59,014 nt of DNA from Chloroflexota bacterium. GTDB taxonomy: Bacteria > Chloroflexota > Anaerolineae > DTLA01. Within the stretch, counting starts at the first letter, position 1, and every line of letters begins with the position of its first letter. The notes under the pieces are model-generated. The model did no database searches and had not been told where the DNA came from. It was given only the letters and a program-made list of their open reading frames with translations. Of the stretch, positions 8,297 to 55,930 are shown one piece after another. The stretch covers positions 1 to 59,014 of the forward strand of contig JACIWU010000009.1 of assembly GCA_014360805.1 (NCBI GenBank), read 5' to 3'. Made by a program: the position numbers and the translations under genes.

Positions 8297-8322
8297 GATG
8301 CCTCCTGCGTGCGCCTTGAGCC

Positions 8323-9165: not shown

Positions 9166-9167
9166 CT

Positions 9168-22640: not shown

Positions 22641-22642
22641 CG

Positions 22643-23860: not shown

Positions 23861-23927
23861 CACTCCCTCCCCGGCGCGTTTTTCACAGGGTACCACAACG
23901 GCAGGCCCAAGGCAAAGCCGCGCCGCA

Positions 23928-39053: not shown

Positions 39054-40004
39054 TTACAGGCATGTGATGGGGCGGCTCTGCAACAGATAGATTGTGCCGC
39101 CCTCCGACGCCCACTCAATATCCTGTGGGCACCCGAAGTGTCGCTCCACTTTGTTGCCGAGGTCCACCAGTTGGCGCAACTCGTCCAGCGTCAGCACCTT
39201 GGCCGCTGCCTTGTCCGGCGGAACCTGCAACGTGATCACCCCGCAATCGCCGTCGCGACAGACCATGATCTGCTTCTCGGGCACGAACTCGTACACGATC
39301 TCGTAGGTCTCGCGGTCCACCTTGTAGTGATCGGGCGTGATGGTGCCGGAAACGATCCCCTCGCCCAGCCCCCACACCGCCTCAATGGTCATCTGGAAGT
39401 GATTGCGCATCACGGGGTCAACCGTGAAGGTAACGCCCGACTTCTCCGAATTGATCATCTTCTGCACCACCACGGCCATAGACACCTCGGAGTGCTCAAA
39501 GCCCTTCTGGTGCCGATAGAAGATCGCTTGAGACGTGAAAAGCGAGGACCAGCACCCCCGCACCGCGCGCAGGAGTTGGTCCTCGCCAACCACGTTTAGA
39601 AAAGTCTCCTGTTGCCCCGCGAAACTGGCCCCCGCCAGGTCCTCGGCCGTCGCGCTAGAGCGCACCGCTACCGCCGCATCCGGGCCCAGGGCGCGGTAGT
39701 GGGCCACGATCTCGTCCCGCAGGTCATCCGGAATCGGGATGTCGGCAAACAACGCCCGCACCCGATGCTCTACTTCCTGAAGGTGCCCGCTTTCCAGATA
39801 ATCCAGGCCGCTGAGAATGCGGGCGATTTGCTCGCCCAGGCCCAGCGCCTCGGCAACCCGCCTGTACGCCGAGGATAGGATGACGAACCCCGGCGGGATG
39901 GGTAGCCCCGCCTGCGCCATGTCGCCCAGATTCGCGCCTTTACCTCCCGCCAGCGCCACATCGTTCCGCGAAATCTCCGAAAACCACCGACACATTATAC
40001 CCAT
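39054..40004 (-). CDS. Stand-alone PEP-synthase/PPDK ATP-grasp domain protein
   Basis: A 316-aa protein equal to the N-terminal nucleotide-binding third of PEP synthase. It shows GGKGANLGDMAQAGLPIPPGF, the VRSSATAEDLAGASFAGQQETFLN block (split motif VRSSATAEDL), VVVQKMINSEKSGVTFTVDP, and the closing YLLQSRPI. The phosphohistidine and PEP-binding domains are missing because the gene simply ends there, with a proper stop. It is the size of the small subunit of phenylphosphate synthase. The natural partner is the phosphohistidine protein at 27999-29708. GGAGG lies 10 bases before the start; an in-frame ATG three codons on is possible. Confidence 0.86.
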   Translation of the reverse strand: MGIMCRWFSEISRNDVALAGGKGANLGDMAQAGLPIPPGFVILSSAYRRVAEALGLGEQIARILSGLDYLESGHLQEVEHRVRALFADIPIPDDLRDEIVAHYRALGPDAAVAVRSSATAEDLAGASFAGQQETFLNVVGEDQLLRAVRGCWSSLFTSQAIFYRHQKGFEHSEVSMAVVVQKMINSEKSGVTFTVDPVMRNHFQMTIEAVWGLGEGIVSGTITPDHYKVDRETYEIVYEFVPEKQIMVCRDGDCGVITLQVPPDKAAAKVLTLDELRQLVDLGNKVERHFGCPQDIEWASEGGTIYLLQSRPITCL

Positions 40005-40964: not shown

Positions 40965-40993
40965 TTGACAACGCGCGAAATTCCGTGTATACT
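40965..40993 (+). promoter_or_regulatory. Promoter of operon C
   Basis: -35 TTGACA (40965-40970), 17-bp spacer, -10 TATACT (40988-40993). The start near 41000 gives a leader of about 115 bases. The -10 region, GTATACTAT, is identical to that of the operon A promoter. Confidence 0.77.
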
Positions 40994-41115
40994 ATTATCG
41001 GTCAGTAAAAATCATTTTCATAGAACAAAAACCCTAGCGCGCCGCGTGAGGGCCTTTCCCTTATGGCGACGCTTTCGTTACATCTCGTCCAGCCCGTTTG
41101 TAGCGGAGGTTGCTT

Positions 41116-42243
41116 ATGCCGGTCTATTCATTTACACCCGCGGACGTGGAACCCCTCTTGGAAGGCTTGGCCATCCTGGGCACGGGCGGCGGAGGCTCCC
41201 CCGAATGGGGCAAGGCTATCATGCAGAATGACTTCGCCCACAATCGGCACCCCCAGATTATCCCCCTGGAAGAAATCGCCGACGACGCAACCGTGGTCTC
41301 GGGCGGCATCATGGGGTCGGTCAAGAAACTGGAAGAGTTTGGCACCGACGCCATCATGGCCCACTGGGAGGAGCGATTTGAACTGGAAGCCGTAACCCGC
41401 GTGATGGAGGGCATCCTGGGCCGCAAGATAGACCACATGGTTCCGTTTGAGGTGGGCGGGCTGAACACGCCGGTGGTGCTGTCGTTGGGGGCGCGCTTGG
41501 GCATCCCCATCATTGACGGCGACGCCCTGGGCCGGTCCGCGCCGGAGACCCAGATGACCAGTTTCATCGGCCATGGCGTCTCGCTTACGCCGATGCCGCT
41601 CATAGACTACTACGGCAACGTGGTGATTGTCCAGAGCGCGGTCAGTCCCACGTACCCCGATCAACTGGGCCGATGGGTTGTGAGCAATGGCGGCGGGCTG
41701 GGCGCCAACAACCACTACCCGATGACCGGGCGCCAGGCGAAGCAGGCGGTGGTCCCCGGAACCATCAGCAAAGCGCTGCACCTGGGCCGCGCCGTGCAAG
41801 CCGCGCGGCGACTGGGTGGCGACCCGATTTCGGTGATCGCCGCCGAGATGAAGGGAAAACGCCTCTTCACCGGTCGGATTCTCAGGCTGGACGAAGAGGA
41901 GAGACTGGGCTTCTATTTCACGACGGCCACCATTCAGGGTGAAGGGGCGCACCGAGGCCAGACGGCGCGGCTCGTGATCAAGAACGAGACCATGCTCCTG
42001 GAGATTGACGGCAAGGTGCGGGCCATGTTCCCCGACCTGGTGCTGCTCCTTGACCCTACCACGGGCCGTGGGCTGATGAGCGTGGAACTGAAGGCAGGGA
42101 CGGAGGTGGCGCTGGTGGGTGCGCCTTGCCATGAGCGCCTGCGCGAAGCCGTGCGCACGGACGTCGGAGCACAAGCCTTCAGCCCCGAACGGTACGGTCG
42201 CCCTGACTTGACCTATCGTCCCTTGGAGGAGTTGGCGGGATGA
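41116..42243 (+). CDS. DUF917-family protein (hydantoinase/oxoprolinase-associated)
   Basis: A 375-aa DUF917 protein. It begins FTPADVEPLLEGLAILGTGGGGSPEWG, with the Gly-rich motif typical of the family, followed by VVSGGIMGSVKK and GRSAPETQMTSFIGHG. DUF917 proteins are related to accessory parts of hydantoinases and acetone-carboxylase-type enzymes, but no catalytic partner (HyuA/HyuB) is next to it. The start ATG 41116 has GGAGG 6 bases upstream. Its stop overlaps the next start (ATGA). It is the first gene of operon C, placed ahead of a URO-D-family protein. Confidence 0.84.
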   Translation: MPVYSFTPADVEPLLEGLAILGTGGGGSPEWGKAIMQNDFAHNRHPQIIPLEEIADDATVVSGGIMGSVKKLEEFGTDAIMAHWEERFELEAVTRVMEGILGRKIDHMVPFEVGGLNTPVVLSLGARLGIPIIDGDALGRSAPETQMTSFIGHGVSLTPMPLIDYYGNVVIVQSAVSPTYPDQLGRWVVSNGGGLGANNHYPMTGRQAKQAVVPGTISKALHLGRAVQAARRLGGDPISVIAAEMKGKRLFTGRILRLDEEERLGFYFTTATIQGEGAHRGQTARLVIKNETMLLEIDGKVRAMFPDLVLLLDPTTGRGLMSVELKAGTEVALVGAPCHERLREAVRTDVGAQAFSPERYGRPDLTYRPLEELAG

Positions 42244-43388
42244 ACAGCCGGGAACGTGTCCTTGCGGCGCTGGCGCACCGCGAACCCGACCGCGTGCCGG
42301 TGGATTTCGGCAGCACGTGGATCACCACCATCACGATCCCGAAGTACGAAGAACTCAAGCGGCATCTGGGCATAGATAGCCCCACGGTCGTCATGGAGCG
42401 GTCCCAGCAGGTGTGCATGGTGGACGAACGCATTCTGGACATCTTCCATGTGGACACCGTTGGCGTTTTCTACGGCCCGCCCGAGTTGGAACGCAATCAG
42501 TTCGTGGAACTGGGCGAAAACGTTTACCGCGATTCTTGGGGCATCACCTGGCACAAGCCGCCGACATCCCACTACTTTGACATGCTCAAGCCCCCGTTGG
42601 GCGGCGAGATCACGATCCACGACGTGCTGAATCATCCATGGCCCGACCCGCACGACCCGGGCTACACCCGCGGACTTCGCGAGCGCGTCCGCAAACAGCG
42701 CGAGTCCACGGATCGGGCGTTGGTGCTCAACCTGTCCATCTGGGTGCTGCAGTGTAGCCAATTCGTGCGCGGGTTTGAGGATTGGTTTGTGGACCTGATC
42801 GCCCAACCTCGGTTGATGGAGGCGATTTTTGACGCCATCACCGAGTCGCTGCTCGGCGTGGTGGAGGATGTTCTGGACGAGGTGGGCGATTTGGTGGATG
42901 TGGTCTCGGTGTCCGACGACATGGGGCATCAGGACAGGACCTGCATCCGGCCCGAACTGTACCGCAAACTCATCAAGCCCCGACATGCGCGGCTGATGGA
43001 GGCCATCAAGTCGCGGACGCGGGCGCCCGTCATGTGGCACACCTGCGGGTCGGTGTACGACCTGCTGGACGACCTGATTGACATGGGCGTGGACGCCCTG
43101 AATCCGGTGCAGACCGACGCCGCCAAGATGGAGCCCGAACGGCTCAAGCGGGATTACGGCGACCGCCTGACGTTCTGGGGCGGCATAGATGCGATTCGCG
43201 TCCTGCCCTTCGGCACGCCGCAGGATGTGGAAGACGAAGTGAAGCGCAAGATTCGGGTGTTCGCGCCCGGCGGGGGCTACATCCTCAATTCCGTTCACAA
43301 CATTCAGCCCAACGTGCCCCTGGAAAACCTGTTTGCCATGTTTGAGGCCGCGCAGAAGCACGGTCGCTACCCTATCGCGGAGGGATGA
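42240..43388 (+). CDS. Uroporphyrinogen decarboxylase-family (URO-D) protein, likely methyltransferase-like, copy 1
   Basis: A 382-aa TIM-barrel protein of the URO-D superfamily. Motifs include REPDRVPVDFGSTW near the start, DDMGHQDRTCIRPELYRKLIKP (about 225-246), the metal-type motif WHTCGSV (around 260) and VDALNPVQ. The HxC motif occurs in the methylcobamide:CoM methyltransferases of this superfamily but not in haem-biosynthetic HemE, so a cobalamin- or metal-dependent transfer or demethylation is more likely than decarboxylation. No corrinoid protein is nearby. Overlaps its neighbours by 4 bases at both ends. Confidence 0.84.
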   Translation: MNSRERVLAALAHREPDRVPVDFGSTWITTITIPKYEELKRHLGIDSPTVVMERSQQVCMVDERILDIFHVDTVGVFYGPPELERNQFVELGENVYRDSWGITWHKPPTSHYFDMLKPPLGGEITIHDVLNHPWPDPHDPGYTRGLRERVRKQRESTDRALVLNLSIWVLQCSQFVRGFEDWFVDLIAQPRLMEAIFDAITESLLGVVEDVLDEVGDLVDVVSVSDDMGHQDRTCIRPELYRKLIKPRHARLMEAIKSRTRAPVMWHTCGSVYDLLDDLIDMGVDALNPVQTDAAKMEPERLKRDYGDRLTFWGGIDAIRVLPFGTPQDVEDEVKRKIRVFAPGGGYILNSVHNIQPNVPLENLFAMFEAAQKHGRYPIAEG

Positions 43389-43393
43389 CTCGC

Positions 43394-44239
43394 ATGCAGA
43401 GCAAATCTGCGGAGAACGAACGGTACCATATCCGGGCGGTGCTCCGCGCGCTGGATGTCCTGGAGGCCTTCTCTACGGACGAGCCCGCGTTGTCGCTGAT
43501 GGAGGTGAGCGACCGAATCGGGCTGAACCCAAGTACCACGTTCCGGCTCCTGGCGACGCTGGAGAGTCGGGGCTACGTGGAGCAGGATGAGGCCACGGGG
43601 CGGTATCGGGTCGGCGTCAGCATCCTGAAGCCCACCAGCACGTTCTTGGCTCACCTCAACGTCCGCGAGCGCGTGTACCCGTTCCTGGTGGAATTGCGCG
43701 ACGCCAGCCGCGAGACGGTCCACCTGACAGTGTTGGATCCGCGCATGATGGAGGTCATCTATCTGGAGAAACTAGAGGGACTTCAGCCCATCGGCCTCAT
43801 GAGTTCGCGGGTAGGCGGGAGGTCGCCGGCCTACTGCACGGCCGTTGGCAAGGCTCTGCTGGCCTATCAGGATCCGGGCATCGTCCGCGGGTTCTTCTCC
43901 AAGAACGGCATGAGGCGCTTCACCGCCAACACCATCACGACGGTGGACGCGCTGATGGAGGAATTGGAGCGCGTGCGGGAGCGCGGGTATGCGCTGGACA
44001 ACGCCGAGCACGAGGAAGATGTGATGTGCGTCGCCATCCCACTTTGGAATCATCTGGGCACGGTGGTGGCTGCCATCAGCGTCTCGGGGCCGGTGGAGCG
44101 GATAACCCGTGCCATTCGCGAGGATGGGCTGGTGGAGCGGGTCCTGTCGGTGGGCAAGCGGGTCAGTCGGCAACTGGGAGCCTTGCCGTCGGGCGAAGCA
44201 ATGCCCGGCAGGCAGGGCGTGCCCTACAGGGCAGTGTGA
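43394..44239 (+). CDS. IclR-family transcriptional regulator
   Basis: A 281-aa regulator. The N-terminal helix-turn-helix has AVLRALDVLEAFSTDEPALSLMEVSDRIGLNPSTTFRLL; the C-terminal effector domain has the usual VGGRSPAYCTAVGKALLAY block and ending VAAISVSGPVERIT. IclR proteins commonly control uptake and breakdown of sugar acids such as KDG, which fits the KDG kinase and KDPG aldolase genes directly downstream. ATG 43394 is preferred: GGAGG is 10 bases upstream, whereas the ATG at 43385 is too close to it. It probably autoregulates the operon C promoter. Confidence 0.92.
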   Translation: MQSKSAENERYHIRAVLRALDVLEAFSTDEPALSLMEVSDRIGLNPSTTFRLLATLESRGYVEQDEATGRYRVGVSILKPTSTFLAHLNVRERVYPFLVELRDASRETVHLTVLDPRMMEVIYLEKLEGLQPIGLMSSRVGGRSPAYCTAVGKALLAYQDPGIVRGFFSKNGMRRFTANTITTVDALMEELERVRERGYALDNAEHEEDVMCVAIPLWNHLGTVVAAISVSGPVERITRAIREDGLVERVLSVGKRVSRQLGALPSGEAMPGRQGVPYRAV

Positions 44240-44270: not shown

Positions 44271-45254
44271 ATGGACGTCGTTACCTTTGGAGAGACCATG
44301 ATTCGTTTGGCGGCGCCGGGGTTCCAGCGCCTGGAGCAGGTTACTTCGCTGGCCGTAACGGTGGGCGGCGCAGAACTCAACGTGGCCACAGGCGTAGCGC
44401 GGCTCGGATTGAAGAGCGCGTGGGTCAGCCGCCTGCCCGACAACCCCCTGGGGCGCATGGCCCGCAACAAGGCCAACGAGTTCGGCGTGGACACGTCGCA
44501 CATCGTCTGGACTTCTGAGGACCGCATGGGGCTGTACTTTGTGGAATACGGGGCCGCGCCCAGGGCCAGTTCGGTGCTGTACGACCGCGAAGGCTCGGCC
44601 ATAAGCCGCATCCGGCCGGGCGAGGTGAAGTGGGACGAAGTGCTGCGCGGCGCCCACCTGTTCCACACCACCGGCATCACGCCCGCCCTGAGCGATTCGG
44701 CAGCCGCGGTGGTGGCCGAGGCGATGGAAGCGGCAAAGCGGCATGGCTGTCTGGTGAGTTACGACCTCAACTACCGCGCCAAACTGTGGAGCACGCAGAA
44801 GGCGCGGCAGGTGCAGGAGCCACTCATGCAGATGGTGGACATCCTCTCCACAACCGAGGAAGACACCGAGAAAGTCTTCGGCGTCAAGGCCGATTCCTAT
44901 GTAGATGTGGCGCGCAAACTGATTGATCGCTTCGGGTTCAAGGTGGTTACCATCACCCTGCGGGAAACGCCCTCGGTGTGGCGCAACACCTGGACGGCCA
45001 TTGCGGTGGACCGCGAGGGCAACGTGTACGACGACCGGGTGTACGACGTGGAGGTGGTGGACCGGGTGGGCGGCGGCGACGCCTATACCGCGGGCTTCTT
45101 GTATGGGTATCTGACGCAGGGCGTGGCGGCAGGCGTGCTGTACGGCAATGCCTTCTCGGTGTTGAAACAAACGTCGTGGGGAGATTTCAACTGGGCCACA
45201 CTGGCCGAGGTGGAGGCGCTTCTGAAAGGCGCGGGGCTGCGCATCGTTCGCTAG
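44271..45254 (+). CDS. kdgK: 2-keto-3-deoxygluconate kinase (PfkB-family sugar kinase)
   Basis: A 327-aa ribokinase-family kinase. It begins MDVVTFGETMIRLAAPG, like KdgK, and has the N-terminal GGAELNVATGVARLG and the C-terminal catalytic DRVGGGDAYTAGF with the base Asp. It should phosphorylate 2-keto-3-deoxygluconate to KDPG. The next gene is the matching aldolase, which supports the substrate. Fructokinase or tagatose kinase activity cannot be excluded from sequence alone. ATG 44271 has GGAGG 10 bases upstream. Confidence 0.88.
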   Translation: MDVVTFGETMIRLAAPGFQRLEQVTSLAVTVGGAELNVATGVARLGLKSAWVSRLPDNPLGRMARNKANEFGVDTSHIVWTSEDRMGLYFVEYGAAPRASSVLYDREGSAISRIRPGEVKWDEVLRGAHLFHTTGITPALSDSAAAVVAEAMEAAKRHGCLVSYDLNYRAKLWSTQKARQVQEPLMQMVDILSTTEEDTEKVFGVKADSYVDVARKLIDRFGFKVVTITLRETPSVWRNTWTAIAVDREGNVYDDRVYDVEVVDRVGGGDAYTAGFLYGYLTQGVAAGVLYGNAFSVLKQTSWGDFNWATLAEVEALLKGAGLRIVR

Positions 45255-45265
45255 GAGGTTCTCGC

Positions 45266-45922
45266 ATGTTCAAGCAGGATGTCATCGCCCGAATTCTGCG
45301 CACGGGGGTCATCGCCATCGTGCGCCTGGACAGCGCCGAATCGCTGCAAAAGGTCGCGGATGCCATCCTTGAGGGCGGAGTGGACATCATTGAGTTCACC
45401 ATGACGACACCCGGCGCGCTGGACATTCTGGAATCCGCGACGGCGAAATTCGGCGACAGGGTCATCCTTGGCGCGGGCACCGTGTTGGATCCGGAGTCGG
45501 CGCGCGCGGCCGTGCTGGCGGGGGCCCGATTTGTCGTCTCGCCCAACCTTAATCCCCGGACGGTGGGACTGTGCCATCGCTATGGCGTCGTGGCGGTGCC
45601 CGGCGTGTTGACGCCGACCGAGATTGTCGCCGCGATGGAGGCTGGGGCCGACCTCATCAAGGTGTTTCCGGCGTCGCTGGGCGGGCCGGAGTACATCAAG
45701 GCGGTACGAGCGCCTTTGCCGCAGGCCCCGCTTGTGCCCACTGGCGGCGTGGAGGTGGAGAACGCAGGCGACTACATCAAGGCCGGCGCGGTAGCCGTGG
45801 CCGTGGGGGGGAGCCTGGTGAACAAGAAGTGGGTCGCCGCGGGCGAGTTTGCCAAAATGACCGAGACGGCGCGCCGCTTGATGGAGACCGTGCAGGCTGC
45901 ACGGGCGGGAGCAGAGGCATGA
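45266..45922 (+). CDS. eda: KDPG/KHG aldolase
   Basis: A 218-aa class I aldolase of the Entner-Doudoroff pathway that splits KDPG into pyruvate and glyceraldehyde-3-phosphate. Motifs are TGVIAIVRLDSAE, IEFTMTTPGALD, LGAGTVLDPESA, and the Schiff-base Lys in LIKVFPAS; PTGGVEVEN ends the phosphate site. The size is normal. TAGGAGG precedes ATG 45266. It overlaps the next gene by 4 bases (ATGA), so kdgK-eda-flavoprotein are made together. Confidence 0.93.
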   Translation: MFKQDVIARILRTGVIAIVRLDSAESLQKVADAILEGGVDIIEFTMTTPGALDILESATAKFGDRVILGAGTVLDPESARAAVLAGARFVVSPNLNPRTVGLCHRYGVVAVPGVLTPTEIVAAMEAGADLIKVFPASLGGPEYIKAVRAPLPQAPLVPTGGVEVENAGDYIKAGAVAVAVGGSLVNKKWVAAGEFAKMTETARRLMETVQAARAGAEA

Positions 45923-46668
45923 AGCCGCTGTCGCTCTTGGGCATATGCGGGAGTCCGCGTCGCACCGGCAACAGCCGATACCTACTGGAACTGGCGGTGG
46001 AGGAGGCGCAGAAGGCGGCTGGCGACCGAATGCAGGTTGAGGTGGTCAGCCTGGCCGGCTTGAAGATCGGCCCGTGCGTGTCGTGCTATACGTGCGGCAA
46101 GCGCAACGGCGAATGCTCCATCAAGGACGATTTCGCCGCTCTGCGGGACAAGTGGGCCGCCGCCGATGCCATCATCTACTCCATCCCGGTGTACCATCTG
46201 GGAATTCCGGGGCAACTCAAGTGCTTCATAGACCGCCTGGGCAACAGTCTGTGGAGTTACTACGGTGGGGTGGTGGCCAAGAGCCTGCGGGTCATCGGGA
46301 TCATCGTCCAGGGCGCGCACATCTTTGCGGGCCAGGAGCAGGCAGCCACGCAACTCATCCACCACGCCCTGGTCATGGGTGGGATTCCGGTTACGGGAGA
46401 CCCCTGGGAGTCGTACATCTCGGCGGCAGGGTGGACGCGCTGCGGCGACGGCAAGAACTCGCTGCGCGAGTTGGTGGCGCGAGGGGATGAGGATGCGCTG
46501 GTAACCGTGCGCGCGACTCAGAGCCTGGGCAGGCGCGTGGCGCAGATCGCCCTGTTGGTGCGCGCTGGCGGGCAGGCCCTGTACCCCGAACTGGCCGAAG
46601 ACGGCGGGTATAGCATCTTTCTGGAGCGGCTGGAGAGGCCGGCAGATCACGCGCAGGGAAAGGAGTAG
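45919..46668 (+). CDS. Iron-sulfur flavoprotein (NADPH-dependent FMN reductase fold, Isf-like)
   Basis: A 249-aa flavodoxin-like protein. The FMN-phosphate loop is GICGSPRRTGNSR (8-20). A compact Cys motif, CVSCYTCGKRNGEC (C-x2-C-x2-C-x6-C), matches that of iron-sulfur flavoproteins, which carry a [4Fe-4S] cluster and FMN and pass electrons singly between ferredoxin and other acceptors. It lies directly before a 16-Cys ferredoxin and AOR, so it is likely the electron exit of that oxidoreductase. The final acceptor is unknown. Confidence 0.85.
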   Translation: MKPLSLLGICGSPRRTGNSRYLLELAVEEAQKAAGDRMQVEVVSLAGLKIGPCVSCYTCGKRNGECSIKDDFAALRDKWAAADAIIYSIPVYHLGIPGQLKCFIDRLGNSLWSYYGGVVAKSLRVIGIIVQGAHIFAGQEQAATQLIHHALVMGGIPVTGDPWESYISAAGWTRCGDGKNSLRELVARGDEDALVTVRATQSLGRRVAQIALLVRAGGQALYPELAEDGGYSIFLERLERPADHAQGKE

Positions 46669-46674
46669 GCAACT

Positions 46675-47163
46675 ATGGACGAGGCGCATATCGTGAACAT
46701 CCACATCAACGCGGCCAAATGCACCGCCTGCAAGGCGTGCGAACTGGCCTGCTCGTTTACAAAGGAGGGTGTTTTCTCCCCCAGACTCTCGCGCATTCGC
46801 GTGATGCAATTGCACGATGTGGGCATGAACGTGCCGGTGGTGTGCGTCAACTGCGCCGACGCGCCGTGCATCGCCGCATGTCCGACGGGAGCCGTGCGCA
46901 GGGATGCGTCGGTGCCCGTGGTGCGCATTGACGAGGAAGAATGCATCGGGTGCGGGGATTGCGTGCGTGCGTGCCCGTTTGGAGCCGCCGACATGAACGA
47001 GGAGCGCGGCGTGGCGATAATGTGCGATCTTTGCGATGGCAGCCCTGTCTGCGTGGATCACTGCATCTACGGGGCGCTGTCTTTCGGCGAGGCCATGCCA
47101 ACCGCGCAGGTGAAGCGCCTGGCGCACGCGCACACAGTTGCGGCGCAGTACCGTGGCCGATAG
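46675..47163 (+). CDS. Four-cluster [4Fe-4S] ferredoxin-type electron-transfer subunit
   Basis: A 162-aa protein with 16 cluster Cys in four sets: CTACKACELAC, CVNCADAPCIAACP, CIGCGDCVRACP and CDLCDGSPVCVDHC. This is the DmsB/HycB-type layout, normally a subunit that passes electrons between a catalytic subunit and a partner. It is encoded between an iron-sulfur flavoprotein and AOR-2, which indicates a dedicated AOR electron carrier. The start ATG 46675 follows AAAGGAG. No membrane anchor is present. Confidence 0.9.
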   Translation: MDEAHIVNIHINAAKCTACKACELACSFTKEGVFSPRLSRIRVMQLHDVGMNVPVVCVNCADAPCIAACPTGAVRRDASVPVVRIDEEECIGCGDCVRACPFGAADMNEERGVAIMCDLCDGSPVCVDHCIYGALSFGEAMPTAQVKRLAHAHTVAAQYRGR

Positions 47164-47173
47164 GAGGGGAGAA

Positions 47174-49087
47174 ATGCTTCGCGACATCGCCAAACAGCGG
47201 CTTCTGCATGTGGATTTGTCCAAGCGCGCCACCTGGGTGGAGGACGTTCCGCTGGAGGATCTCCAGAAGTACCTGGGCGGGCGCGGCCTGGCGGCCAAAT
47301 GGCTGTACGAGCAGGTGCCTGCCGGAGCCGACTCGCTGGGGCCTGAGAACGTCATCATCTTCAGCACCGGCACACTGACGGGTACCAGCGCCCCTTCGTC
47401 GGGCCGCTCGTCCATCACGACGAAAAGCCCGGCCACCGGTCTTTACCTGAAGGTTAGCGTGGGCGGCCACCTGGGCGCCGCCATCAAGTATGCCGGCTAC
47501 GACTACCTGATGATTCACGGCGTGGCGTCCAGGCCGGTGTACCTGTGGATTGACGATGGGAAGGTGGAACTGCGCTCGGCAGAGCATCTGTGGGGCAAAG
47601 GGACCCGCGAGGTGGATGACCTCATCAAGGAGGAAATCGGCGACCCCACGATTCAGACCGGCATCATCGGCCCCGCCGCCGAGAATAAGGTGAAGTTCGC
47701 CTGCTTCATGGTCTCGCGCTACAACTCGGCTTCCCGCGGCGGCATCGGCGCCGTGTTCGGCAGCAAGAACCTGAAGGCCATCGCCGCCAGGGGCACGGGT
47801 GGCCTGCGGCCCGCCAGGGGCAAGGAGTTCTTCGCCCTGGCGCGGAAGGTGCGCGGGGCGCTCGCGGCCGATGCCGGCTCGGAGAGCCTGTACAATTGGG
47901 GCACCGCCGGTTCCATCCCCGGCCTCAACGAGATGGGCATGCTGGCGGCTTACAACTTCAGCCGCGTTACCATTGAACACGGAGAGCGGCTGAGCGGCCA
48001 GTACCTGTTGAGCGAGGGGTACCTCATCGGCCGGGAGTCGTGCTTCGCGTGTTCCACTGCGTGCCATCGTTTCGTGAAGAGCCGCTCGCCGAAATGGGGC
48101 GACGTGCTGGATTCCGGCCCCGAACTGGAGACGGTGATGAGCCTGGGCGCCGAGTGTGGCATCACCGACATTGAGGCCGTGCTCAAAGCCAATCAACTGT
48201 GCAACGACCTGGGAATGGATACCATATCCACGGGCCACGTTATCTCCTGGGCCATGGAGACCTACGAGAAGGGCCTGATTTCACCGAAGCAGGCGGACGG
48301 GCTGGACTTGCGCTTTGGCAACGCCGAGGCGCAACTGGCCCTGATTCAGCGCATCGCCCGCCGCGAGGGGCTTCTGGGCGACCTGCTGGCCGAGGGGACG
48401 CGCGCGGCCGCGGAAGAAATCGGCGGGGATTCCTGGAAGTGGGCCATTCAGGCGAAGGGGCTGGAGCAGTCGGCGGTGGATACCCGCGCCGCCAAGAGTT
48501 ACGCCCTGGCCTTCGCCGTCAACCCGCGCGGCCCCGATCACCTCATGACGGAAACCTACGCGGAGTTTGGGTTCACCCAGGAATCGCGCGACGTCATCCG
48601 CAAGGTTACCGGCGATGAGAAGTACGCCGACCCCCGCCTGACCGAGAAGCGCGCCGAGATTGTCCTGTGGCACGAGCAGTGTTACGGGGCCAGTGAGGCG
48701 CTCGGGTTCTGCGTCTTCACGTCCACCGCGGCCTTCGCCGTGAATCCGGAGAACATGGCGCAGATGTTCAGCCTGGCCGTGGGCGTTCCCATGTCCGAGG
48801 AAGATTTGATGCTGGCGGCCCGCCGTATGGTTACCATTGAGAAATGCTTCAACGTGCGCGAGGGGGCGCGCCGTCAGGACGACCGCCTGCCCTGGCGCAT
48901 GATGAACGAGCCTGTGCCCGATGGGCCGAACAAGGGGATGATTACCGACGCCGCCATGCTGGAGAACTTGCTGGACCAGTACTACACGGCGCACGGCTGG
49001 GACCTGGAGACCAGCATCCCCCGACAAAGCACGCTGAAGTTCCTGGGGCTGGATTCGGTGTGCGTGGGCATTCCGCAGATTCCGTGA
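47174..49087 (+). CDS. Aldehyde ferredoxin oxidoreductase family, AOR-2
   Basis: A 637-aa tungsten/molybdopterin aldehyde oxidoreductase. GGRGLAAKWLYEQ (35-47), GTSAPSSGRSSITTKSPATG (about 70-89), the cluster ligands C290, C293 and C297 in SCFACSTACHRF, GMDTISTGH, and the last Cys in LGFCVFTS are present. It differs clearly from AOR-1 in the same window and has its own ferredoxin, flavoprotein and MoaD. Given KdgK and Eda upstream, glyceraldehyde or another sugar-derived aldehyde is a candidate substrate (inference). ATG 47174 has GGAGGGG 5 bases upstream. Confidence 0.93.
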   Translation: MLRDIAKQRLLHVDLSKRATWVEDVPLEDLQKYLGGRGLAAKWLYEQVPAGADSLGPENVIIFSTGTLTGTSAPSSGRSSITTKSPATGLYLKVSVGGHLGAAIKYAGYDYLMIHGVASRPVYLWIDDGKVELRSAEHLWGKGTREVDDLIKEEIGDPTIQTGIIGPAAENKVKFACFMVSRYNSASRGGIGAVFGSKNLKAIAARGTGGLRPARGKEFFALARKVRGALAADAGSESLYNWGTAGSIPGLNEMGMLAAYNFSRVTIEHGERLSGQYLLSEGYLIGRESCFACSTACHRFVKSRSPKWGDVLDSGPELETVMSLGAECGITDIEAVLKANQLCNDLGMDTISTGHVISWAMETYEKGLISPKQADGLDLRFGNAEAQLALIQRIARREGLLGDLLAEGTRAAAEEIGGDSWKWAIQAKGLEQSAVDTRAAKSYALAFAVNPRGPDHLMTETYAEFGFTQESRDVIRKVTGDEKYADPRLTEKRAEIVLWHEQCYGASEALGFCVFTSTAAFAVNPENMAQMFSLAVGVPMSEEDLMLAARRMVTIEKCFNVREGARRQDDRLPWRMMNEPVPDGPNKGMITDAAMLENLLDQYYTAHGWDLETSIPRQSTLKFLGLDSVCVGIPQIP

Positions 49088-49105
49088 TGCAGCGAGGGAT
49101 GCGAG

Positions 49106-49396
49106 ATGGCCAGGGAGCGCGTGGGCATACGGTTGCGATTGTTCGGGCTGAGCCACCCCCAGAGCGGCCGCATGGAAGAGGAACTCGTGGCGTACAGCGA
49201 GGGGGTGACGGTGGGACAGCTCTGGACCGACTTGCAGCGTCGGGCCGACCCGCGCGCCCCCCTGGCGAGCCTGCAAAGGGATATGGTGCTGGCGCTGGTG
49301 AACGGCGTTCCGGTGCAGCGGCTGGCGGAGGGATGGGATGCACCCTTGCAGGAGGGCGACACCGTAACGTTTATGGTGAAGGCATTCGGAGGATAG
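49106..49396 (+). CDS. MoaD/ThiS-family sulfur carrier
   Basis: A 96-aa ubiquitin-fold protein that ends in Gly-Gly (VKAFGG), the reactive C-terminus of MoaD-like sulfur carriers. MVLALVNGVPVQRLAEGWDAPLQEGDTVTFM is the typical second half. It supplies dithiolene sulfur for the pterin cofactor and is often found next to AOR genes. It follows AOR-2 by 18 bp and is likely dedicated to it. No moaE or moeB is in the window. Confidence 0.86.
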   Translation: MARERVGIRLRLFGLSHPQSGRMEEELVAYSEGVTVGQLWTDLQRRADPRAPLASLQRDMVLALVNGVPVQRLAEGWDAPLQEGDTVTFMVKAFGG

Positions 49397-49512: not shown

Positions 49513-51201
49513 ATGCGTACCGATCGTTTGTTCAAGATTCTGGTTGTGATTGTCGTGCTGGGTGTTGCGGTGGCGGGGCTGGCGGCCTGCGCCAAGAAGG
49601 CTACGCCCACGGCGCCGCCGCCGTATGAGGCCAAGCCCTCCCCCACACCGGAGCCAACCACCCCACCGCCGCCCACGCCGACGCCTGTCCCAACCAAGCC
49701 CGTGATCGTCCTGGCGCTGGACAGCGACATTGACCACATTGAACTGATGGAGTTCCGGAGCGACGCGGGGTACTACGCGACGGCCAACCTGTATGAGCCG
49801 ATGCTCCAGCAGAAACTGGTACCCGATGCCGACGGCACGGTGCTTGAAGGGCAACAGGAGTACGTGCCGGGTCTGGCCGAGTCGTTCGCCATAGCCCCCG
49901 ACGGGAAGTCCATCACGCTGAAGATTCGTCAGGGCGCCAAGTTCGCGGATGGTGCCGAGATCACCGCCGAGTCCTTCAAACACACCTTTGACCGCGCGCT
50001 GACGTCTCCGCGCAGTTACATCCCGCTGCTCACCCAGTTCATGGGCTTCTCCAAGGCGGAAGATGTTGTGGTTGTGGACAAGTACACCCTGCGCATCAAT
50101 CTCCAGCAGCAGGGCGCCCTGCTGATCCCGCAGTTGGCCTTCCAGGTGTTCGGCGCGATGGACCCGGCGACCACCAAGGCCCACGCCACGGCCGAGGACC
50201 CCTGGGCCCATGACTGGTACCGCAAGAATGCGAACCCCAGCGGGCCGTACATCCTTACCAAGTGGGAGCCTGGGGTGGAGTATGTCTTTGAGCCGAATCC
50301 CAACTACTGGCAAGGCCCCGACTTCTTCCAGAACTCCAAGGTCATCGCCAAGGTGGTGCCCTCGCCCGAGGATCGCGAGTTGCTGCTGAAGAAGGGCGAC
50401 ATTGACCTGGCGCTGGGCCTCCCGTTCAAGGACATTGACGCGCTCAAGGCCGACCCCAACGTGAAGGTCAAGGCCATCCACTACACCCGCCTGTTCTACC
50501 TGGGGATGAACAACAAGATCCCGCCGTTTGACAACGTCAAGGTGCGGCAGGCCATCTCCTACGGCATCCCGTATCAGACCATCCTGGACAAAGTGCTGTA
50601 TGGCTACGGCCAGCGGGCCTACTCGCCCATCCCCAAGGGGATGCCGCTGCACAACCCGTCCTTCTGGAACTACGAAACGGATACGGCGAAGACCGCCCAG
50701 TTGCTGAAAGAGGCGGGCGTCTCCAACCTCAAGTTGGAACTGTCGGTCCGCCAGTCCATCCCCTGGGACGTGGATGCTGCCGTGTGGATTCAGGCGTCCC
50801 TGGCCGAGGCGGGTGTGGATGTGACCGTCAACCGCATGACCGACGCCGACTTCTTCGACAAACTCAATAAGCACGAGTTGCCGTTCTTCATTCACGACTG
50901 GTATTCGTGGGGCAACGACCCTGCGTTCCAGTTGACATTCCTACTGAAGTGCGGCGCATTCACCAACTACGCCGACTACTGCAACCCACGCGTGGATGAA
51001 CTGATTGAGCAGGCGACGTGGACGGTGGATCAGGCGGCACGCCAGAAAATGCTGGACGAGGCGCAGCAGATCATCGTGAGCGAGGCCCCGTGGGCGTACC
51101 TGCATCAGCCCGACTGGATCGTGGCGATGAACAAGGACTTTTACGGCTTCGCCAAACTGGATGACCTGTGCCTGCGGTTCGCCTACATGGGCAAGAAGTA
51201 G
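49513..51201 (+). CDS. ABC transporter substrate-binding lipoprotein (family 5, oligopeptide/oligosaccharide type)
   Basis: A 562-aa extracellular solute-binding protein. The N-terminus has a helix and lipobox LAAC (C26), then a Pro/Thr-rich linker to about residue 60. The SBP-5 fold follows: YEPMLQQKLV, ILKIRQGAKFADG-type motif (TLKIRQGAKFADGAEIT), and NPNYWQGPDF. Family members bind peptides, nickel, or sugars such as xyloglucan and cellobiose. The setting among sugar-acid genes favours a carbohydrate ligand, which is inference. AAGGAGGAG precedes ATG 49513. A strong hairpin follows its stop. Confidence 0.92.
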   Translation: MRTDRLFKILVVIVVLGVAVAGLAACAKKATPTAPPPYEAKPSPTPEPTTPPPPTPTPVPTKPVIVLALDSDIDHIELMEFRSDAGYYATANLYEPMLQQKLVPDADGTVLEGQQEYVPGLAESFAIAPDGKSITLKIRQGAKFADGAEITAESFKHTFDRALTSPRSYIPLLTQFMGFSKAEDVVVVDKYTLRINLQQQGALLIPQLAFQVFGAMDPATTKAHATAEDPWAHDWYRKNANPSGPYILTKWEPGVEYVFEPNPNYWQGPDFFQNSKVIAKVVPSPEDRELLLKKGDIDLALGLPFKDIDALKADPNVKVKAIHYTRLFYLGMNNKIPPFDNVKVRQAISYGIPYQTILDKVLYGYGQRAYSPIPKGMPLHNPSFWNYETDTAKTAQLLKEAGVSNLKLELSVRQSIPWDVDAAVWIQASLAEAGVDVTVNRMTDADFFDKLNKHELPFFIHDWYSWGNDPAFQLTFLLKCGAFTNYADYCNPRVDELIEQATWTVDQAARQKMLDEAQQIIVSEAPWAYLHQPDWIVAMNKDFYGFAKLDDLCLRFAYMGKK

Positions 51202-51296: not shown

Positions 51297-52316
51297 TTGG
51301 GATCGCTGAGACGATATGCACTGCGCAGACTTGCGCTGGCTTTTGTAACGCTGTGCGGCGTCGTGGTGGTGGTGTTTATCATCACGCGCATTCTGCCCGG
51401 GAACCCCGCGGCGGTGCGCGTTGGCCCATACGCGAAGCCGGAACTGCTGGCGCAAGTAGAGAAGGAGATGGGCCTGGACAAGCCCTTGCCTGTCCAGTTT
51501 GTGAACTACGTGGCGAAACTGGCGCGCGGCGACATGGGCAAAAGTTGGCGCACCGGCCAGCCGGTCCAGCAAGACCTGTGGCAGCGCCTGCCCGCGACGC
51601 TGGAACTGGCCCTGGCGGCCACGCTGATTGCCATCTTTGTCGGCGTCATCCTGGGCATCCTCGCGGCGCTGTTTCACAACTCGTGGTTTGACCAGGTGGT
51701 GCGCATCTTCACCATCTTCGGGGCTTCCACGGCGCTGTTTTGGCTTGCGCTTGTCTTTATCTTCGTGTTCTACTATCGGCTGGGGTGGGCCGCGTCTCCT
51801 CTCGGGAGGCTCACCGTCGGGATAGAGCCGCCCGCGCGAATCACGGGCATGTTCGTTGTGGACAGCGCCCTCACGGGCAACACCGCCGCGCTGAAGGACT
51901 CGCTACATCATCTGGCGTTGCCGGCGTTCACGTTGGCCTTCGTGGTGAGCGCCCCCATCACCAAGATTGTGCGCGCGGGGATGCTGGACCAACTGAACGC
52001 TGACTACATCCGCACCGCCAAGACCATCGGCGTGCCGATGCGCGAAATCCTGTGGCGCGACGCGCTGCGCAACGCGATGATTCCGATTTTGACCACCATC
52101 GGCATCGTGTTCGGCTACCTGATGGCGGGCAACGTGCTGGTGGAGATGATCTTCGCCTGGCCGGGCATCGGCTCCTATGCATGGATGGCCCTGCTCAACA
52201 AGGACTTTGAGGCGATCCAGGGGTTTGTGCTCCTCATCGCGGCCATGTACGTGCTCCTCAACCTGGCCATTGACCTGCTGTACAGCGTGGTAGACCCCAG
52301 GATACGCCTGGGTTAG
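51297..52316 (+). CDS. ABC transporter permease (DppB/OppB family)
   Basis: A 339-aa inner-membrane permease with about six helices. The N-terminal LALAFVTLCGVVVVVFIITRILPGNP and the EAA loop DYIRTAKTIGVPMREILWRDALRNA are typical of DppB. The start is most likely TTG 51297, preceded by GGAGAAGG; GTG 51285 is the alternative and lacks a good site. It is encoded after the binding-protein hairpin and pairs with the DppC-type permease next to it. Confidence 0.9.
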   Translation: MGSLRRYALRRLALAFVTLCGVVVVVFIITRILPGNPAAVRVGPYAKPELLAQVEKEMGLDKPLPVQFVNYVAKLARGDMGKSWRTGQPVQQDLWQRLPATLELALAATLIAIFVGVILGILAALFHNSWFDQVVRIFTIFGASTALFWLALVFIFVFYYRLGWAASPLGRLTVGIEPPARITGMFVVDSALTGNTAALKDSLHHLALPAFTLAFVVSAPITKIVRAGMLDQLNADYIRTAKTIGVPMREILWRDALRNAMIPILTTIGIVFGYLMAGNVLVEMIFAWPGIGSYAWMALLNKDFEAIQGFVLLIAAMYVLLNLAIDLLYSVVDPRIRLG

Positions 52317-52341
52317 CCTTGATTCTCAGGAGTGAACAGCA

Positions 52342-53238
52342 TTGGTAAGTGAACCGCTCACAGTACCCCGACAGAGAGAACAAGCGGCGCGTGAGGGCAG
52401 AGCCTGGCGCGCCTGGTATGTCCTGCGGTCGCATCCTTCCATGATTGCAGGGCTGGTACTCCTTGCCATTGTCCTCTTCGTAACCATCTTCGGGCCGGCG
52501 CTGGTCCCGTACAAGCCGCTGAAGACGGACCCGGAGAATCGCCTGTTGCCGCCTTCGGCGCTGCACCCGATGGGCACCGACGCTTTCGGGAGAGATATCC
52601 TGTCGCGAGTGGTGCACGGCGCCCGCCTAGACCTGCTCATCGCCTTCTCGGTGGTGGCCATCGCGCTCGGTATCGGCGTCTTCGTGGGCATGTTCAGCGG
52701 CTACTACGGGGGGAAGGTGGACGATGTGGTGATGCGCATCACGGACGTGATCCTGGCGTTCCCGTCGTTCATCCTAGCGCTGGCCATCACGGCTATCCTG
52801 GGCAACAGCATCCCGAACGTGATCATCGCCATCGCCATCGCGTACATCCCATACTTCGTGCGGCTGACCCGCGGCGAGGTGCTCAGCGCGAAGGAGCGGG
52901 AGTACGCCGAGGCAGCCCGCTGCGTCGGCAACTCCAACTGGCGCATCATCTACCTGCACCTGCTGCCCAACTGCCTGACTCCCGCGCTGGTTCAGGCCAC
53001 GCTGTGCCTGGGGTGGGCCATCCTGGACGCATCGGGGTTGGCGTTCCTGGGGCTGGGCATCCGCCCGCCGACGCCGGAGTGGGGCGTCCTCGTGAGCGAG
53101 GGATCCCGAGACATCATAGGCGGGCAGTGGTGGACCTCGTTCTTTCCGGGTGCGGTCATCGTGCTTACGGCGTTCGGGTTCAATCTGGTCGGGGATAGCC
53201 TTCGGGACGTAACGTCCCCCACGGAGGCGGTACAATGA
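52342..53238 (+). CDS. ABC transporter permease (DppC/OppC family)
   Basis: A 298-aa permease. HPMGTDAFGRDILSRVVHGAR is the diagnostic DppC stretch, and the EAA loop is REYAEAARCVGNSNWRIIYLHLLPN. The start is TTG at 52342 with AGGAG 9 bases upstream. It has the usual cytoplasmic N-terminal tail before the first helix. Its stop overlaps the ATPase start by 4 bases (ATGA). Confidence 0.92.
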   Translation: MVSEPLTVPRQREQAAREGRAWRAWYVLRSHPSMIAGLVLLAIVLFVTIFGPALVPYKPLKTDPENRLLPPSALHPMGTDAFGRDILSRVVHGARLDLLIAFSVVAIALGIGVFVGMFSGYYGGKVDDVVMRITDVILAFPSFILALAITAILGNSIPNVIIAIAIAYIPYFVRLTRGEVLSAKEREYAEAARCVGNSNWRIIYLHLLPNCLTPALVQATLCLGWAILDASGLAFLGLGIRPPTPEWGVLVSEGSRDIIGGQWWTSFFPGAVIVLTAFGFNLVGDSLRDVTSPTEAVQ

Positions 53239-54236
53239 CCGCGCACGACGAGCCTCTCCTTGCAATTCGTTCGCTGAGTGTGAGTTTCCCGCGCTACAAT
53301 CAGCGCGTGCGTGTGCTGGACCGGGTGTCCTTCAGCGTGGACCGCGGGGCCTTCGTGGGGCTTGTGGGCGAAAGCGGCTCGGGCAAGACGTTGAGTTCGC
53401 TCACGGCCATGGGGTTCTTGCCGCCCTCGGCGCGCGTGGACGAAGGGGAGATCTGGCTGAACGGCCAGAACCTGCTGGCGCTGTCGCCCGAAGAGATGAC
53501 CCGATTGCGCGGGCGCAAGATCGCCATGATCTTCCAGAGCACCCGCAGCGCGCTGAACCCCATGATGCGCGTGGGCGATCAGGTGGCCCGCGCGATCCGC
53601 ATCCAGAAGCGGGTGGGCGGCAAGGAAGCCTACGCTGAGGCCGTCCGCCTGCTGGCGCGGGTGGGGATCGCCGACGCGGAGAAGCGGGCGCGCGCCTATC
53701 CTCACCAACTGAGCGGCGGCATGTGCCAGCGGGTGCTGGTGGCCATGATGCTGGCCTGCCGACCCGCCCTGCTCATCGCCGACGAGCCCACCACCGGCCT
53801 GGACGTAACAATACAGGCCCAAATTTTTGAGATGTTCCTGGAGATTCAGCGGGAAATCGGCGCGTCGGTTCTCCTGATCACGCACGACCTGGGGGTTGTC
53901 GCCGAGACCTGCCAGCGTGTGGTTGTGATGTACGCTGGCCAGATTATGGAAAGCGCGCCGGTGGCGTCGCTGTTTGCGTCGCCGCTGCACCCCTACACGC
54001 GGATGCTCATGCGCTCGGTGTTGCGGGTGGACCGCCGCGTGGAGCCACCCGACGCCGCTTCCGTCATGAAAGAGGAGATCACGTACAGCATCCTGGGATG
54101 CCGATTCGCGCCGCGCTGTCCGGTGGCTCTGCCCATCTGCTGGGAGCAGAAGCCGGATGCCGAGAGCGCGGAGAACGACCATCAGGTAGCCTGTTACAAT
54201 TGGCGAGGGACGAATGGAACCGGTCATTCGGGTTGA
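53235..54236 (+). CDS. ABC transporter ATP-binding protein (DppD/OppD family)
   Basis: A 333-aa ATPase. Walker A is GESGSGKT, the signature is LSGGMCQRVLV (Cys replaces the usual Arg), and Walker B is LLIADEPTTGLD. The C-terminal oligopeptide-type region has CRFAPRCPVALPICWEQKPD, a Cys-containing FeS-type motif usual for DppD. It overlaps the next ATPase by 23 bp and will form a heterodimer with it. Confidence 0.94.
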   Translation: MTAHDEPLLAIRSLSVSFPRYNQRVRVLDRVSFSVDRGAFVGLVGESGSGKTLSSLTAMGFLPPSARVDEGEIWLNGQNLLALSPEEMTRLRGRKIAMIFQSTRSALNPMMRVGDQVARAIRIQKRVGGKEAYAEAVRLLARVGIADAEKRARAYPHQLSGGMCQRVLVAMMLACRPALLIADEPTTGLDVTIQAQIFEMFLEIQREIGASVLLITHDLGVVAETCQRVVVMYAGQIMESAPVASLFASPLHPYTRMLMRSVLRVDRRVEPPDAASVMKEEITYSILGCRFAPRCPVALPICWEQKPDAESAENDHQVACYNWRGTNGTGHSG

Positions 54237-55167
54237 TAATTTGCGCAAGGCCTTCCGCGAAGGACGATCTGTCATCTGGGCTGTGAACGGCGTGAGCCTG
54301 GAAATCTACCCGGGGGAGGCCGTGGGCCTGGTGGGGGAAAGCGGATGCGGCAAGACGACCACGGCGCGATGCGTGCTCCGCCTGGTGGAGCCGACCGAGG
54401 GGCGGGTGTTCTTTCAGGGCGCCGACATGGCCCAATGGAGCGGCGGCCACCTGCGCCGTCAGCGCCGTTTCTTCCAGATGGTGTTCCAGGATCCGAACAC
54501 CTCGCTGAACCCTCGGTTCACGGTGCGCCGCACGCTGGCCGAGCCGCTGCGTCTGCACGGCCTGGCAAGCAGCCGCAGGGCGACCGAGGAGATGCTCTGC
54601 GAGACGATGCTACGCGTGAATTTGGAGCCGCGCCTGCTGGAACGCTACCCGCACCAGTTGAGCGGGGGCCAGAAGCAGCGCGTGGGCATCGCGCGGGCCA
54701 TCATCACGAATCCCCGATTCATCGCCCTGGACGAACCCACATCGTCGTTGGACATGTCCATCCGCATTCAGATACTGAGCCTGCTTCAGCGGTTGCAGAA
54801 CGAGATGAACATGGCCTACCTGTTCATCTCACACGATTTGAGCGCCGTTCGTTTTCTGTGCAGCCGCGTATTCGTGATGTACCTGGGCAGGGTTGTGGAG
54901 GCAGGCCCGGTGGATGAGATCTTTGAGCGGCCTGCGCATCCCTATACGCGGGCACTACTCTCAGCGATCCCGATCCCGGACCCGAAACTGAAGCGGCAGC
55001 GGATTATCCTGGAAGGCGAGCCGCCCAGCCTGTTCAACCTGCCGCCAGGGTGCGGGTTCTACGACCGTTGCTGGGCGAGAAAGCCCTCCTGTCGCGGAGA
55101 AATGCCGCCGTTCAGGGATGTCGGAGACGGCCATTTTGTCGCATGTTTTGCAGAGGTGGAGGAGTAG
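54214..55167 (+). CDS. ABC transporter ATP-binding protein (DppF/OppF family)
   Basis: A 317-aa ATPase. Walker A is GESGCGKTT, the signature LSGGQKQRVGIARAI, Walker B FIALDEPTSSLD, and the C-terminal part GCGFYDRCWARKPSC is the DppF-type Cys motif. Partner of the ATPase before it. The start has GAGGGACGA upstream within dppD-like coding sequence. Confidence 0.94.
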   Translation: MEPVIRVDNLRKAFREGRSVIWAVNGVSLEIYPGEAVGLVGESGCGKTTTARCVLRLVEPTEGRVFFQGADMAQWSGGHLRRQRRFFQMVFQDPNTSLNPRFTVRRTLAEPLRLHGLASSRRATEEMLCETMLRVNLEPRLLERYPHQLSGGQKQRVGIARAIITNPRFIALDEPTSSLDMSIRIQILSLLQRLQNEMNMAYLFISHDLSAVRFLCSRVFVMYLGRVVEAGPVDEIFERPAHPYTRALLSAIPIPDPKLKRQRIILEGEPPSLFNLPPGCGFYDRCWARKPSCRGEMPPFRDVGDGHFVACFAEVEE

Positions 55168-55171
55168 GTTT

Positions 55172-55930
55172 ATGGAAGCGTTCTCTCTGAAAGGAAAGCA
55201 CGTGTTGATCACCGGAGGTTCGCGACATCTTGGCGCGGTGGTAGCGCGCCGATTCGCAGCGTTGGGCGCCAACCTGACCATCAACCACTGGCAGGACGCG
55301 GAGAAAGCCGAAGAACTCCGGCGCGACCTTGAGGCGCAAGGGCATCGCGTTCGGGTGGTAGAGGCCGACGTGAGCCAGAGCGCCCAGGTGCGGGCGCTAG
55401 TCGCCGAGGCGGTGGCAGCCTTCGGCCCCGTGGATGTGCTCATTCACTGCGCCGGCCCCTTCGCCATGACGCCCTTCACCCAGATGGACGAGAAGGAGTG
55501 GGACAATATCCTGGGCGTCAACGTGAAGGCCGCCTATCTGCTTGTCAAAGAAGTGGCGCCGAAGATGAAGGAGCGCGGCTGGGGGCGCGTGATTTTGATG
55601 GCGGCGGGTTCGGCCTTCATCCGCACCCATTCCATTTACACCCTGGCGAAGTCCGCGGTCATCACCCTTACGGAGGAATTGGCGGTGGAGTTGGGGCCTG
55701 AAATCACCGTCAACGCCATCGCGCCCGGGCAGATTTACGAGAGCGCTGCGATGATGGACGCTTTTGAGCCTGGGTTCTCCGACCGCGCCACCCAGGCTGC
55801 GCCGCTGAAGCGGCTGGTAACACGCCCTGAAGTCGCCGAGATGATGGCGCTGATTTGCACCTCGCCGGCGATGCAGTCGGTTACCGGGCATACCTTCGTG
55901 ATGGATGGCGGCTGGCGGCTCACGGCATAG
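55172..55930 (+). CDS. SDR-family oxidoreductase
   Basis: A 252-aa classical SDR. It begins FSLKGKHVLITGGSRHLGAVVA (cofactor loop), has VLIHCAGPF, and the catalytic Tyr-Lys in SIYTLAKSAV; the end is VTGHTFVMDGGWR. The residue before the Tyr motif that usually is Ser lies in MAAGSAF. It may reduce or oxidise the transported substrate. It follows the transporter by 4 bp, so it belongs to operon C. ATG 55172 has GGAGG upstream. Confidence 0.88.
   Translation: MEAFSLKGKHVLITGGSRHLGAVVARRFAALGANLTINHWQDAEKAEELRRDLEAQGHRVRVVEADVSQSAQVRALVAEAVAAFGPVDVLIHCAGPFAMTPFTQMDEKEWDNILGVNVKAAYLLVKEVAPKMKERGWGRVILMAAGSAFIRTHSIYTLAKSAVITLTEELAVELGPEITVNAIAPGQIYESAAMMDAFEPGFSDRATQAAPLKRLVTRPEVAEMMALICTSPAMQSVTGHTFVMDGGWRLTA

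Follow-up and report, generated by a model that had tools for sequence, protein, structure and literature searches.

Tungsten oxidoreductases (WORs) were sorted in a 2026 classification in which a large subunit, WorL, together with a small subunit, WorS, makes up Class II, the accompanying ThiS-like gene being named worX (PMC13328260). The known Class II enzymes, among them CbGOR and PfASOR, consist of an AFOR-type large subunit with four cluster cysteines and an adjacent four-cluster WorS, and have a ThiS-like WorX gene nearby. Class III (WorLSN) and Class IV (WorLS-ABC) share the WorL and WorS subunits but add an FAD/NAD-binding WorN or the bifurcating WorABC module, respectively. Here we describe a WorL-WorS operon in a 59,014-nucleotide (nt) stretch of DNA from a member of the Chloroflexota (contig JACIWU010000009.1 of assembly GCA_014360805.1), referred to below as the window. 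An earlier note, made from the sequence of the window, had picked out six genes, kdgK, eda, an Isf-like flavoprotein gene, a 16-Cys ferredoxin gene, an aldehyde oxidoreductase (AOR) gene termed AOR-2 and moaD. Family searches and coordinates confirmed all six on the plus strand at the positions given there, with the overlaps and short gaps described (Table 1).

By sequence, AOR-2 and the 16-Cys protein are the WorL-WorS pair of a Class II tungsten oxidoreductase, and WorX is encoded next to them. We propose, at slightly less than even odds (roughly 0.48), that the enzyme has a dedicated electron partner, the Isf-like flavoprotein, and serves an IclR-associated import-and-breakdown operon. The enzyme set is real and rare; WorL and WorS are of a kind already known, and what sets this set apart is the dedicated flavoprotein and the loss of active-site tyrosines.

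WorL, WorS and an Isf-like flavoprotein

WorL scored far over the cut-offs of both AFOR domains (AFOR_N, 252.8 bits against 29.8; AFOR_C, 397.2 bits against 27). The window protein has all the cysteine ligands of the [4Fe-4S] cluster (C288, C291, C295 and C494 in PfAOR), and these are Cys in 13 of 13 WorL homologues. Its closest solved relatives, all less than 45% identical, are PfAOR (1aor) and chain D of 9mqx, with chain A of 8c0z also near. We take 9mqx to be the bifurcating enzyme of Acetomicrobium, going by the molecule names in the PDB and the literature.

Around the active site, the window protein keeps Thr243, Glu311, Glu313 and His448 (PfAOR numbering) but has Leu at Tyr312, Val at Tyr427 and Glu at Tyr452. 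The same tendency runs through the clade of close relatives to which it belongs (the WorL clade, defined below): Tyr427 is replaced in 13 of 13 members (by Val, Ala, Ile or Pro), Tyr452 likewise in 13 of 13 and Tyr312 in 11 of 13, and the WorL proteins of loci L057 and L058 have lost Thr243 as well. The second-shell residues are Thr243, Glu313, Tyr427 and His448; bacterial GORs retain all four, and Tyr427 has a part in the mechanism proposed for aldehyde oxidation (PMC12096430). Tyr427 is present in all four characterised enzymes that we aligned, whereas in other Chloroflexota paralogues the position is occupied by Tyr, His or one of several further residues. The window protein thus shares Thr243, Glu313, His448 and the cluster cysteines with the AORs sensu stricto (PfAOR, AmWOR1 and AaAOR; WOR clade 87) but departs from them, and from the bacterial GORs, at Tyr427; it also carries extra residues following the His448 region. 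In our tree, for which the PDB chain sequences were taken from alignments and are therefore near-complete rather than full, the WorL clade was fully supported and fell outside the PfAOR/AmWOR/AaAOR group. The earlier note had let its proposal hang on the binding residues of AOR-2 and on conservation of the gene order; the cluster-binding residues are indeed present, but one conserved residue of the active site has been substituted, and the gene order holds only in part.

WorS, the electron-wire subunit, contains exactly 16 cysteines in four sets, all of them invariant among 10 homologues, and its closest solved proteins are the small subunits 9mqx E and 8c0z C. The four-cluster ferredoxin of the earlier note corresponds to a known subunit. 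WorX, a protein of the maturation type, ends in -GG, as do all seven of the homologues aligned. We found neither a WorN gene nor a WorABC module in the 41- to 56-kb block, all genes of which were assigned to families other than WorABC; with WorS adjacent to WorL, this is the gene content of Class II. Where Class III and Class IV enzymes have WorN or WorABC, this operon has a flavodoxin-like protein.

That protein combines an FMN_red domain with a compact CX2CX2CX6C motif, the combination that identifies the Isf family, and its likeness to Isf of the Methanosarcina thermophila type lies at the level of motif and fold. The four cysteines are kept in all nine homologues, with altered spacing in L041 and L045. 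Its predicted fold (mean pLDDT, 81.5) is flavodoxin-like and nearest to the quinone reductases WrbA and PnpB, and its nearest solved relative by sequence is the flavone reductase 7d38. The literature searches made turned up no link between Isf or WrbA and tungsten aldehyde oxidoreductases.

The source genome (G000; 3.2 Mb) holds nine AOR-family genes, two of which are inside the window. The second window gene (25984-27870, minus strand) encodes a protein that is 38 to 40% identical, with Ser at Glu313 and Leu at Tyr427, and so also departs from the aldehyde-oxidising members. Near it, at 22047-25145 on the minus strand, a class II aldolase-fold gene lies beside two UPF0261 (Tm-1-like) genes. 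On another contig (C44; locus L096, 8516-15622, minus strand), a further AOR gene stands beside ThiS-like, lactate-racemase-N and IlvD/Edd-family dehydratase genes.

Distribution of the WorL clade and its companions

We defined the WorL clade by an identity of at least 47% and Isf orthologues by an E value of 1e-35 or better, and searched 396 genomes of the class, a draw of 400 genomes from the phylum and a further collection; the assemblies come from uncultured organisms and several are fragmentary. The clade was present in 9 of the 396 class genomes and in three more from the further collection (L042, L044 and L046), and the phylum draw added no genome. Counting contigs found in both collections once left 14 loci.

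Of the 396 class genomes, seven have Isf orthologues, and each of the seven belongs to the nine that carry the WorL clade. Every one of the nine Isf genes in these genomes lies beside a WorL-clade gene, one genome (G172) holding three such pairs. The probability of this overlap arising by chance was 1e-13 counted by genome and 5e-9 counted by genus, values that ignore kinship and are inflated by it. Within 1.5-kb flanks of other Chloroflexota AOR genes (28 to 39% identity; 26 loci in relatives and the 7 other AOR loci of the source genome), we found neither Isf nor eda. The association thus supports the Isf-like flavoprotein as a genuine, clade-specific companion of WorL, found at 9 of the 14 loci and distinguishing them from the known Class II members.

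The surroundings of the pair vary. In L041 and L045, Isf belongs to the WorL operon, with 2-oxoacid:ferredoxin oxidoreductase genes between it and WorS; in L057 and L058, it directly follows WorL, no WorS was found nearby, and both loci carry DUF917. Hydantoin-racemase-type genes occur in L058. The WorL-Isf pair is therefore more stable than the pathway around it. The full six-gene order (kdgK, eda, Isf, WorS, WorL, moaD), which the earlier note had suggested surveying as a conserved set, was found in only three congeneric genomes, and we rejected it as a conserved unit.

The link to sugar-acid genes recurs more widely than the full order. The eda product is securely a KDPG/KHG aldolase (TIGR01182, 192.5 bits; cut-off, 156.05). 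The kdgK product is certainly of the PfkB family, and its substrate is probably KDG, although the best KDG kinase models gave 381.7 and 292.5 bits against cut-offs of 700 and 440. Both genes accompany WorL in the genus and in L044 and L060, and eda alone does so in L055. In L060, the order is binding protein, permease, WorS, WorL, eda, class-V aminotransferase and kdgK, the transport genes being of the monosaccharide type and nearest to ribose/arabinose-type importers. The kdgK/eda link thus recurs in at least three divergent lineages, and the pathway is sugar-acid-like in only part of the clade; placement in sugar-acid breakdown, as the earlier note had it, holds for these lineages and is not universal. 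As in semi-phosphorylative Entner-Doudoroff modules, a KDG-type kinase gene adjoins a KDPG aldolase gene, but here the two stand alongside WorLS, DUF917 and UROD-like genes.

Operon layout and neighbouring genes

The six genes form the core of a wider same-strand run of about 14 genes (41.1 to 55.9 kb), which the earlier note had not recognized. Genes for DUF917, UROD-like and IclR-type proteins precede the six, and those of an ABC importer and an SDR follow (Table 1). The end of eda overlaps the start of the Isf gene by 4 nt, and the gaps are 11 nt between kdgK and eda, 6 nt between Isf and WorS, 10 nt between WorS and WorL and 18 nt between WorL and WorX. With an overlap and gaps as short as these, the genes from eda to moaD are likely to be read from a single transcript. 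By consensus matching, the best promoter match of the block, and the only strong one on the plus strand, lies upstream of DUF917, and no terminator-like site was found on the plus strand between that match, at 40965, and 51.3 kb.

Table 1. Features of the WorL-WorS operon, in coordinates of the window
Feature	Position	Strand	Remarks
Sigma-70-like promoter match, TTGACA-17-TATACT	40965..40993	+	11 of 12 positions; consensus match only; upstream of operon
DUF917/S-Me-THD-like protein	41128..42243	+	Codon-level start uncertain (41110-41128)
UROD superfamily protein, MtaA/CmuA-like	42240..43388	+	Under every curated cut-off
IclR-type regulator	43385..44239	+	Nearest models BhcR and KdgR, under cut-off
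kdgK, PfkB sugar kinase	44271..45254	+	Nearest to KDG/KDGal kinases
eda, KDPG/KHG aldolase	45266..45922	+	Over TIGR01182 cut-off
Isf-like flavoprotein	45919..46668	+	FMN_red domain with CX2CX2CX6C; fold predicted to be WrbA/flavodoxin-like
WorS, four-[4Fe-4S]-cluster small subunit	46675..47163	+	16/16 Cys; nearest to the AmWOR and AaAOR counterparts
WorL (AOR-2), tungsten/molybdenum oxidoreductase large subunit	47174..49087	+	AFOR domains; Tyr312/427/452 to Leu/Val/Glu
WorX, ThiS/MoaD-like protein	49106..49396	+	C-terminal GG
Family-5 solute-binding protein of ABC importer	49513..51201	+	Family search
Two ABC permease genes	51300..53238	+	First ends at 52316 (start not fixed), second starts at 52342; from sequence and conserved position
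Two ABC ATPase genes	53235..55167	+	From sequence and conserved position
SDR	55172..55930	+	Final gene of the same-strand run conserved in the genus

DUF917 is the most widely conserved neighbour of the WorL clade. Orthologues were found in 8 of the 396 genomes, 7 of which carry the clade; in the eighth, DUF917 lies just before an IclR homologue and the contig stops 0.2 kb beyond the latter. The UROD-like protein reached 69.9 bits with TIGR01463 (cut-off, 235.4). It keeps the HxC of what we take to be the zinc-ligand positions (HxC...C) of MtaA/CmuA-type proteins and has no Cys at the usual third position; scores under the cut-offs and the missing final Cys led us to reject canonical MtaA-type methyl transfer for this gene. 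Corrinoid (B12-binding) proteins are encoded near DUF917, WorS and WorL in L044 (4128-4763) and L046 (57-686), a hint at methyl transfer in some relatives, and one B12-binding protein is encoded elsewhere in the source genome. In L058 (10970-13275, minus strand), three consecutive genes resembling Asp/Glu/hydantoin racemases (one of them family-scanned) and several copies of DUF917 lie beside WorL-Isf.

Elsewhere on the minus strand of the window, genes at 7709-10289 resemble, judging from their translations, subunits of 2-oxoacid:ferredoxin oxidoreductases, and separate genes encode a phosphoenolpyruvate-utiliser mobile domain protein (28002-29708) and a protein resembling the N terminus of phosphoenolpyruvate synthase (39054-40004).

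Electron flow and substrate

In the operon of the genus, an imported compound may be fed into a 2-keto-3-deoxy sugar-acid pathway ending in kdgK and eda. WorL would oxidise a pathway intermediate at low potential, taking two electrons, most likely from the aldehyde carbon of a sugar-derived compound and probably not from glyceraldehyde-3-phosphate. Electrons would leave one at a time through the [4Fe-4S] cluster of WorL and the four clusters of WorS. The flavoprotein may accept them at its own cluster and FMN, with ferredoxin or another substrate of the pathway next in line. Of this scheme, the genes and their order, the cysteine sets, the clade-specific pairing of WorL with the flavoprotein, the altered active site and the lack of WorN and WorABC in the operon were observed, whereas we infer complex formation, the metal, the direction of the reaction, the substrate and the electron acceptor.

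Several observations weigh against it. Since Tyr427 is replaced across the clade, aldehyde oxidation by WorL is not assured; the earlier note's idea of a sugar-derived aldehyde as substrate is only partly supported. No Isf lies near 5 of the 14 WorL-clade loci, and searching those genomes in full turned up no copy, or at most a 34% relative at another place; the flavoprotein is therefore not indispensable. Its [4Fe-4S] cluster and FMN are predicted from motif and fold. The gene eda is present at 6 and kdgK at 5 of the 14 loci, and we found no sugar-acid dehydratase in the operon.

The loci lacking Isf would also suit a flavoprotein that is not the electron partner of WorL and stays in the operon for a task of its own, either acting as a flavin reductase on some other substrate of the pathway or removing oxidants as a protective protein. 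The nearest folds and the flavone reductase relative point the same way, as do the 2-oxoacid oxidoreductase genes that intervene between Isf and WorS in L041 and L045. However, Isf is exclusive to the WorL clade, even at loci without WorS, and its four conserved cysteines point to a cluster of a sort that can take up single electrons from donors of the ferredoxin type, leaving such a separate role rather doubtful in our view. The electron path from AOR to flavin drawn by the earlier note has the support of association (nine of nine Isf loci beside the WorL clade), and the cluster residues are intact.

Rather than oxidise an aldehyde, WorL may perform another low-potential reaction, whether acid reduction, an oxidation of the sulfonate type or some reductive step, and electrons might then run from Isf to WorL. 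Such a reaction would fit the replacement of Tyr427 in all 13 clade members and of Tyr312 and Tyr452 as well in the window group; a Tyr-to-Trp change at the Tyr427 site accompanies loss of aldehyde activity in WOR4 (PMC12096430), and the family includes other chemistry, such as that of benzoyl-CoA reductase and aliphatic sulfonate oxidoreductase. On the other hand, the window protein keeps Thr243, Glu311, Glu313 and His448. Many other relatives also lack Tyr427, often having His instead, and one such His variant, AOR Cf, is an active aldehyde enzyme. We consider a non-aldehyde reaction somewhat unlikely. If WorL were instead a bacterial GOR-like enzyme, it would convert the glyceraldehyde-3-phosphate that eda releases here to 3-phosphoglycerate, yielding reduced ferredoxin in place of NADH and ATP, and CbGOR of Caldicellulosiruptor is a Class II WorLS that oxidises this compound (PMC13328260). 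GOR enzymes, however, keep Tyr427, which the WorL clade lacks (CbGOR being compared by its published description only); the archaeal GAPOR model NF040818, whose cut-off is 1300 bits, gave 30.5; a GAPDH-family protein is encoded on another contig of the genome; and 8 of the 14 clade loci have no eda. Because of the residues, the GAPOR score and the GAPDH-family protein, the bypass of the substrate-level step envisaged by the earlier note is improbable. Its other suggestion, an electron-bifurcating or confurcating unit, draws on a flavin occurring together with several clusters in a single operon and on the bifurcation carried out by Class IV WORs. The operon has neither the WorABC subunits that mark such enzymes nor WorN, every gene of the block having been placed in some other family, so bifurcation is without sequence support. 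The flavodoxin-like fold of Isf is also not known to serve as a bifurcating site, and we rate this possibility as very improbable.

Beyond the Class II enzyme with a flavoprotein partner that we prefer, the clade might represent a kind of tungsten oxidoreductase outside Classes I to V, in which WorL, with or without WorS, is mostly paired with a flavodoxin-type FMN/[4Fe-4S] partner. Its active site, lacking the catalytic tyrosine or tyrosines, would then imply a reaction other than ordinary aldehyde oxidation. We hold this view only tentatively. Only 5 of 92 WOR clades include any member of defined role (PMC13328260). The context of this one is unusually informative: an exclusive flavoprotein and an import system accompany it, joined in several lineages by a KDPG aldolase. 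Together with the departure at mechanism residues, this opens the electron acceptor and the role of Tyr427 to direct tests.

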